The notes beneath the pieces were generated by a model that worked only from the letters and a program-made list of their open reading frames with translations, did not search any database and was not told where the DNA came from. This document shows, piece by piece, positions 47,651 to 50,350 of a stretch of 64,000 bases of DNA. The DNA is taken from NCBI RefSeq assembly GCF_008704935.1, contig NZ_CP023692.1:3886001-3950000 (forward strand). The letters run 5' to 3'. The DNA comes from Streptomyces vinaceus (lineage in GTDB: Bacteria > Actinomycetota > Actinomycetes > Streptomycetales > Streptomycetaceae). Each line of letters begins with the position of its first letter. The stretch's first letter is position 1. The position numbers and the translations under genes were made by a program.

Positions 47651-47654
47651 ATGG

Positions 47655-47727
<73 letters not shown>

Positions 47728-49620: not shown

Positions 49621-49649
49621 AAAGGCCCTGATCAATGATCAGGGCCTTT
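49621..49649 (-). terminator. Terminator of tRNA-Gly(GCC) copy 2
   Basis: A 13-bp stem (AAAGGCCCTGATC and complement) with an AAT loop lies eight bases beyond the tRNA 3' end on the minus strand, and ends in TTT. It may insulate the downstream kinase gene. Confidence 0.88.
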
Positions 49650-49657
49650 GCACGCTG

Positions 49658-49730
<73 letters not shown>

Positions 49731-49810
49731 ATGCTGCCTCGGCATGAATGCCGCTGCGATGCGTGCATCACTCTACCCGATCCACCGGAGTGGTCGGTAA
49801 AGCGTTGCAG

Positions 49811-49882
49811 AGCGGGTGACAGGGATCGCACACTGCGCCTTCCCCCTGGAAGGGGGATGTTCTGCTACTGAACTACACCCGC
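49811..49882 (-). tRNA. Atypical tRNA-Gly(TCC)
   Basis: A 72-nt tRNA: acceptor GCGGGTG/CACCCGC, discriminator T, anticodon loop CTTCCAG on a TCCCC/GGGGA stem (anticodon TCC). Two conserved signatures are broken. The D-loop AGTAGCA has A instead of G18, and the T-loop reads TGCGATC, so position 55 is G instead of U (Psi). The T-stem GCAG-(T)-G/CCTGT carries a bulged U. The G18-Psi55 contact that locks the elbow is therefore missing. A normal Gly identity (U73, C35, C36) is kept. Staphylococcal tRNA-Gly used for peptidoglycan bridges shows the same TGC T-loop and loss of D-loop GG. Confidence 0.8.
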
Positions 49883-50032
49883 ACGACCTTCGGGGCTTTG
49901 ACCTGCGGCCTCGCCCCTCGGCGTGATCCACACACTAGCGGACCGGAGGGGGTGGATGGCAAATCGGCCCCCGGCGGGCCCCGTTAGCGGCCCTCGGCGG
50001 GGCCCCGGCGCGTGCCGGGGGCCCCGGTGGAC

Positions 50033-50350
50033 TCAGTGGGCCTCGTTGTACGCCGCGTACACCCGCTTCGGGATGCGGCCGCGCGGCGGCACGTCGAGGT
50101 CGTTGGACCGGGCCCAGGCGCGGACGACCGCCGGGTCGGGGGCCAGGGAGGTGTGCTTGTACGTCTTCCCGGAACGGGCCTGCCGGCGTCCGGCTGCCAC
50201 GAAGGGCGCGAGGCTCTTCCGCAGTTTCTTTGCGTTGGCCAGATTGAGGTCGATCTCGTACGACTTACCGTCCAGGCCGAACGTGACCGTTTCCGCCGCT
50301 TCCCCGCCGTCGATGTCGTCGGAGATCGTGACTACTACGCGCTGCGCCAC
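50033..50350 (-). CDS. lsrL: Lsr2-family nucleoid-associated protein (LsrL type)
   Basis: A 105-residue protein. The GTG start gives VAQRVVVTISDDIDGGEAAE, matching the Lsr2 N-terminal oligomerisation strand, followed by TVTFGLDGKSYEIDLNLANA. The C-terminal DNA-binding part has WARSNDLDVPPRGRIPKRV with the RGR AT-hook-like loop that inserts into the minor groove of AT-rich DNA. Lsr2 proteins silence AT-rich genes. Streptomyces carry two; position next to purSQL is that of the second paralogue, LsrL. It is divergent from purS. Confidence 0.9.
   Translation of the reverse strand: MAQRVVVTISDDIDGGEAAETVTFGLDGKSYEIDLNLANAKKLRKSLAPFVAAGRRQARSGKTYKHTSLAPDPAVVRAWARSNDLDVPPRGRIPKRVYAAYNEAH

Follow-up and report, generated by a model that had tools for sequence, protein, structure and literature searches.

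How glycyl-tRNA is drawn away from translation for use in the cell wall has, to our knowledge, been worked out, in part, for staphylococci only. A non-proteinogenic tRNA-Gly(UCC) of the Staphylococcus aureus cell wall was reportedly presented by Giannouli et al. in 2009. As described in the accessible part of a review (PMC4052509), the S. aureus cell-wall tRNA-Gly has UU or CU in place of G18G19, and its T-stem pairs G49-U65 and G51-C63 are changed to A-U pairs, a change in keeping with weak binding by EF-Tu. For the non-proteinogenic tRNA-Gly, another article (PMC8007984) reports charging, weak recognition by EF-Tu and use in the cell wall. The pseudo-tRNA tRNAOther of Bacillus cereus offers a further likeness: PMC3399842 describes it as aberrant, as standing outside translation and as having a phenotype in the cell wall. 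Likened here by that description, it sits at a genomic island, unlike the Streptomyces RNA reported below. A specialised cell-wall tRNA-Gly is already known from staphylococci, and the version of Streptomycetaceae would be new, provided that its use is confirmed: in the literature searched, with subscription papers outside its scope, the passages at hand contained no description of this Streptomyces RNA.

The window, that is, the whole stretch of 64,000 nucleotides analysed (G000:C1:3886001-3950000), belongs to the single-contig genome of Streptomyces vinaceus (7,673,509 bases). ARAGORN called a tRNA-Gly(tcc) at 49810-49882 (-), and the Rfam tRNA model RF00005 matches 49811-49882 (-) end to end as a cloverleaf of 49.0 bits, above the gathering score of 29, compared to 69.6-69.7 bits for two nearby tRNA-Gly(GCC) genes. 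Pairing is complete in the acceptor, D and anticodon stems, which a sequence-only reading of this locus had called intact, and the letters given by that reading (A18, G55 in the loop UGCGAUC and an extra U in the T-stem) are borne out by the sequence, ARAGORN and Rfam. The D-loop reads AGUAGCA, with A18 followed by a retained G19, and the T-stem is made up of G49-U65, C50-G64, A51-U63, G52-C62, the bulged U and G53-C61. Compared to a canonical elongator, which has G18G19, T54-U55-C56 and an unbulged T-stem of 5 bp, the gene departs by A18, G55 and the bulge; G19, U54, C56 and A58 are normal. The sequence-only reading went further and had the D-loop/T-loop lock removed. Since G19, U54, C56 and A58 are identical in all 109 copies read, the lock is altered instead, with only the 18-55 contact changed. 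The features of the locus are collected in Table 1.

Table 1. Features of the aberrant tRNA-Gly(UCC) locus, in positions of the window
Feature	Position	Strand	Remarks
Aberrant tRNA-Gly(UCC)	49811..49882	-	A18, G55, bulged U in T-stem, A51-U63, U73; CCA not encoded
Canonical tRNA-Gly(GCC)	49658..49730	-	Same strand, 80 nt downstream of the aberrant gene
Inverted repeat after tRNA-Gly(GCC), probable terminator	49621..49649	-	From the sequence; simple scan negative
Probable -10 element of the tRNA pair	49932..49937	-	TAGTGT; often TAGAGT in relatives
Probable -35 element of the tRNA pair	49957..49962	-	TTGCCA; TTGC conserved by eye; spacer 19
lsr2	50033..50350	-	Directly upstream of the aberrant tRNA gene; Pfam PF11774, PF23359

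The likeness to the S. aureus cell-wall tRNA-Gly covers several points. Both are an extra tRNA-Gly(UCC) beside the normal set with altered D- and T-loops, as far as the available review descriptions go, and each comes from an organism whose Gly-containing bridge is built by a Fem transferase. Of the two A-U pairs that PMC4052509 gives for S. aureus, the T-stem here carries A51-U63, joined by A49-U65 in 6 of the 7 distinct sequences of genus g15 and in g150. The two RNAs also differ. S. aureus replaces both G18 and G19 (same part of PMC4052509), whereas the Streptomyces type changes G18 and keeps G19 in 109/109 copies; the bulged U, judged by the review descriptions, belongs to the Streptomyces type and sets it apart. 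Finally, charging, weak EF-Tu recognition and cell-wall use are reported for S. aureus (PMC8007984) and would be predictions from sequence for the Streptomyces RNA.

We then examined how far the gene extends. Searching 61 genomes at the nucleotide level turned it up in 37/37 Streptomyces. A covariance model built from 23 copies of the aberrant tRNA gave best E-values of 3.1e-23 or lower in 181/181 Streptomyces genomes. Among 15 genomes from the order's other families, E went no lower than 8.7e-17; these 15 have no such gene, and the Gly tRNAs read from five of them are canonical. In a class-wide search, 40/40 Streptomyces were positive (all 40 are also among the 181), and none of the 354 non-Streptomyces genomes gave more than 74.3 bits, in a search whose filters may lose weak matches. 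We read seven of the non-Streptomyces matches, and all proved to be canonical tRNAs, either Gly(UCC) or Gly(CCC). A pattern scan of named genomes, in which the T-arm was fixed, returned at least 118 stretches, and the 80 listed come from Streptomyces, two Actinacidiphila and one record named 'Actinobacteria bacterium'. Pattern matches outside Streptomyces (8 of the 354 genomes) were taken from their letters as chance and set aside. Genus g15 has the gene in 14/14 genomes, always with the compensatory acceptor change G3-C70 to A3-U70. ARAGORN reports 29 of the 197 aberrant copies tested, a count that, like the neighbour, tandem-copy and 32-38 covariation counts given below and the A49-U65 count in g15 above, comes wholly or mostly from copies chosen by their T-arm. 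A selected tRNA of a bacterial family mostly goes unreported by this program.

The surroundings of the gene are also constant. Of the 163 loci that extend far enough, 162 have lsr2 upstream; likewise, 194 of the 202 copies with enough downstream sequence are followed by a tRNA-Gly(GCC) at most 700 nt away. For the remaining 8 of the 202 (L150, L154, L159, L192, L195, L200, L213 and L244), a looser expression recognised no downstream tRNA-Gly(GCC) up to 1.4 kb. The TTGC...TAGAGT block upstream of the tRNA pair looks conserved in relatives by eye; a generic promoter scan of the locus called no -10/-35, and a simple terminator scan did not call the inverted repeat. We observed no linkage of the aberrant tRNA gene to femX. 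A further tRNA-Gly(GCC), with encoded CCA, is present at 47652-47727 (-) of the window, 2 kb from the aberrant gene, and its acceptor stem differs from that of the tRNA-Gly(GCC) in Table 1, with A7-U66 replacing G7-C66.

To follow the gene within the family, we used a set of 61 genomes found as relatives of G206, 50 of which match at E of 1e-18 or lower and 11 of which do not. Genera g143 (3 genomes) and g145 (4 genomes) have the bulged T-stem and A51-U63 together with G18G19 and a TTC T-loop; in one of these genomes (G618) we confirmed that the gene has tRNA-Gly(GCC) and lsr2 as neighbours. The single g150 genome has A18/G55 with the bulge shifted by one position. Besides Streptomyces and g15, A18/G55 occurs in thirteen genomes of ten further genera, which with g150 makes thirteen genera in all. 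In one draft of genus g156 (G617) the gene is missing, though present in its congener G607; a 20-kb stretch of G617 is without the lsr2 locus. The gene is missing from all 10 genomes of g151 and g154, for G630 and G632 (g154) at the one limit used, E of 1e-18, and for the other 8 at looser limits. In the latter 8, the looser search found two tandem GCC tRNAs, which in the three loci read adjoin lsr2 at the usual place of the aberrant pair; in these loci (L385, L386 and L388; g151 and g154) the aberrant tRNA has apparently been replaced by a second tRNA-Gly(GCC).

A FemX protein tree of 26 rows, which is a gene tree and includes 5 of the 10 g151/g154 genomes, unites g151 with g154 (support 91/84) in a clade surrounded by genera that carry the aberrant tRNA. 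Genera g143 and g145 come out as early branches beside the outgroup G037, whose long row is placed with little certainty. In the simplest reading, the history looks stepwise, with a bulged paralogue near the family base, a joint switch at 18/55, and one loss with GCC replacement. On the tree the switch is a single event, kept by all descendants read, and any coupling of 18 with 55 is judged from this one event. Judged from the letters, this stepwise origin within Streptomycetaceae points to an invention independent of the staphylococcal tRNA. The wider proposal, that Streptomycetaceae independently evolved a dedicated non-translational Gly tRNA through the bulge and A51-U63, the coupled 18-55 change from G-U to A-G, and loss in one clade, is put forward tentatively, and we would sooner doubt it than rely on it. 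When viral contigs were searched for a tRNA of the staphylococcal type, the two matches lacked tRNA structure and were put down to chance.

The gene-less clade may be Kitasatospora and a sister genus, as its tree position and species number fit. According to the accessible text of PMC8236941, Kitasatospora differs from Streptomyces and Streptacidiphilus in a wall with LL- and meso-diaminopimelate, glycine and galactose; Streptacidiphilus is also considered to have both diaminopimelate isomers in the available part of PMC6113628. If the clade is so named, loss of the tRNA may accompany a changed cell wall; should the gene-bearing g15 turn out to be Streptacidiphilus, the diaminopimelate link would be weaker.

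What could such a tRNA be for? The sequence-only reading proposed that it supplies glycine for cell-wall cross-bridges, of which Streptomyces peptidoglycan would have a single Gly. The accessible passage on S. coelicolor agrees, describing a single glycine branch added by FemX (PMC4790382), and VanK adds this branch on D-Ala-D-Lac precursors (PMC4790382, PMC6001138, both in part). The genome encodes a FemX homologue (L307:539-1654) whose best solved match is 6snr, the S. aureus lipid II:glycine glycyltransferase (E = 2.3e-31). The setting for the proposed supply is in place; its necessity is not supported, as FemX is kept without the gene. FemX was found in 48/49 genomes tested, including all 10 g151/g154 genomes, and FemAB proteins occur in 58/61 genomes of a wider set, which includes 15/15 from the order's other families. 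Coupling of the aberrant tRNA to FemX by presence and absence failed on these 10 g151/g154 and 15 other-family genomes without the gene, and we conclude that FemX does not require the tRNA. One 410-contig draft (G612) has the aberrant tRNA and no FemX match, and three g151 genomes (G602, G614 and G621) have two FemX homologues each, 74-79% and 71-72% identical to the query.

We favour, with about even confidence, a functional, family-specific tRNA-Gly(UCC) paralogue specialised in donating glycine, most probably to the peptidoglycan bridges that FemX makes. On this view, a tRNA-Gly already bearing the T-stem bulge would have appeared next to lsr2 near the base of Streptomycetaceae, and A18/G55 would later have taken the place of the G18-U55 tertiary contact. 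Glycyl-tRNA synthetase, encoded here by one gene of the dimeric type, reads positions 1-72, 2-71, 73, 35 and 36. The corresponding elements (G1-C72, C2-G71, U73 and the CC of the anticodon) are kept, so charging with glycine is likely. The altered T-stem geometry, A51-U63 and the changed 18-55 contact would weaken or abolish features used by EF-Tu and the ribosome. We infer weak EF-Tu binding, to which the bulge would add beyond the effect of A51-U63, and from its letters the tRNA looks built to avoid EF-Tu. The charged tRNA would then escape translation and pass its glycine to a transferase that works apart from the ribosome, most probably FemX, or VanK where present. As the gene-less clade still has FemX, the tRNA would be a helper that raises the glycine supply without an obligatory part. 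The cell-wall step is our inference. We know of no other non-ribosomal pathway consuming glycine that is common to the family, and it is for this reason that the cell-wall reading is graded as high as an even chance. If it holds, it would be a second, independent case of diversion, in the main antibiotic-producing genus, and tractable in the laboratory, with natural intermediates and losses.

That FemX does not need the tRNA leaves room for another use. The tRNA may be charged and serve some other non-ribosomal or regulatory purpose, as a sensor of uncharged tRNA, a source of tRNA fragments, a regulator binding glycyl-tRNA synthetase, or a donor for other Gly-tRNA-dependent transferases. This is rather unlikely in our view, though it has arguments of its own: the gene is family-specific and FemX wider, and the gene is missing from the FemX-bearing clade of g151 and g154. 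Antibiotic pathways are strain-specific, and the presence of the gene in all 181 Streptomyces searched speaks against a role in them, even if transferases using Gly-tRNA are known from such pathways (accessible part of PMC12945691). Developmental tRNA cleavage has been reported in S. coelicolor (PMC6315542, in part) and would suit a source of fragments. A regulatory use finds no echo in the stretches searched around glyS (L344) and femX (L307), in which no T-box or other Rfam element reached the gathering threshold.

The tRNA could also still be translational, an unusual GGA/GGG reader that perhaps binds poorly or works under certain conditions. We regard this as unlikely, a little more so than the preceding alternative, in view of the glycine tRNAs of the genome. 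Rfam finds 69 tRNA genes (all 69 were run through ARAGORN), and the Gly set comprises 3 GCC, 1 CCC and 2 UCC genes, one of these last canonical and one aberrant. The second, canonical tRNA-Gly(UCC), which the sequence-only reading had said to look for, is present at 4895007-4895078 of the genome, which makes the aberrant gene an extra tRNA-Gly besides a complete canonical set. With canonical UCC and CCC tRNAs at hand, no glycine codon should depend on it. These two share its acceptor end, discriminator and anticodon class and are identical to it at 45 (UCC) and 50 (CCC) of 72 aligned positions, but they have G18G19, a TTC T-loop, no bulge and G51-C63, and the aberrant tRNA differs in each. Each of the genome's five canonical Gly tRNAs has G51-C63, compared to A51-U63 in the aberrant one, which by a simple expression is also alone among the 69 in missing a TTCRA-type T-loop. 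Each of three features (the bulge, A51-U63 and A18/G55) would be expected to impair decoding or the binding of EF-Tu, yet all three are conserved; in one clade, moreover, a GCC tRNA replaces the gene. On the other hand, the anticodon UCC, U33, A37, the anticodon stem, G19, C56, U54 and A58 are all kept; the retained U54, C56, A58 and G19, and in Streptomyces also G49-U65, are features of working tRNAs and count against a non-translational reading. As for the covarying 32-38 pair, ordinary Gly and Pro tRNAs of this genome have it too. A Watson-Crick 32-38 pair was considered as a sign of non-decoding and dropped, as normal Gly, Pro, Ala and Ser tRNAs have it. A crude test for the D-loop GG also flagged one tRNA-Leu(TAA).

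We recounted 109 copies that similarity to the gene had located, reading each where it matched and applying no T-arm filter. A18 goes with G55 in 102 and G18 with U55 in 7, with no mixed copy, and G19, U54, C56 and A58 are invariant. The comparison across Streptomyces that the sequence-only reading had called for shows intact stems and a constant A18/G55 in 42/42 copies from 37 genomes. Pairing was counted on 38 distinct A18/G55 sequences, with g150 left out for its shifted bulge. The T-stem is paired in 190/190 cells, the acceptor stem in 266/266 (including the G3-C70 to A3-U70 change), the D-stem in 152/152 and the anticodon stem in 188/190, and 32-38 pairs in 38/38. The bulged base is U in 37 of the 38 and C in one; A51-U63 is present in the distinct sequences counted, and 49-65 is G-U in Streptomyces. 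The 32-38 pair covaries in the aberrant tRNA (CG 33, TA 14). In a first alignment of 16 distinct rows, 0/500 shuffles reached the covariation score, the shuffling ignoring relatedness, and 8/500 reached the observed number of doubly changed pairs; the count of pair types was not above the shuffles (499/500 as high), as expected where little varies. An alternative T-arm hairpin from folding was discarded, as it pairs in 185/188 cells compared to 235/235 for the T-arm and is broken by columns 45 and 46; the 235/235 figure comes mostly from copies picked by a T-arm expression and becomes 190/190 without that filter. Across 69 distinct Streptomyces contexts, mean identity (ungapped, per position) is 94% for the gene and 43-44% for the 45-nt flanks on either side. 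On these comparisons, the aberrant tRNA is under strong selection and the product of neither chance nor decay. A decaying gene, which the sequence-only reading kept as its alternative, or a by-product left at this site by conversion between tRNA genes, could draw on the low tRNA score (49 bits) and on the clade whose locus lacks the gene, but is extremely improbable given aberrations that stay constant, stems that covary intact over 13 genera, and the contrast in identity between gene and flanks.

The lowest-scoring tRNA match of the genome is a weak tRNA-like gene at G000:C1:934643-934715 (-) (L088; 38.4 bits, anticodon ATC, called Asp), probably a pseudo-tRNA. Some strains have two to four tandem copies of the aberrant tRNA, and amplification up to four might fit a dose-dependent supplier. 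Three or four tandem copies were seen in L149 (Streptomyces sp. I05A-00742), L257, L094, L095 and L118, and the anticodon stems differ among the tandem copies of L094, L095, L149 and L257.
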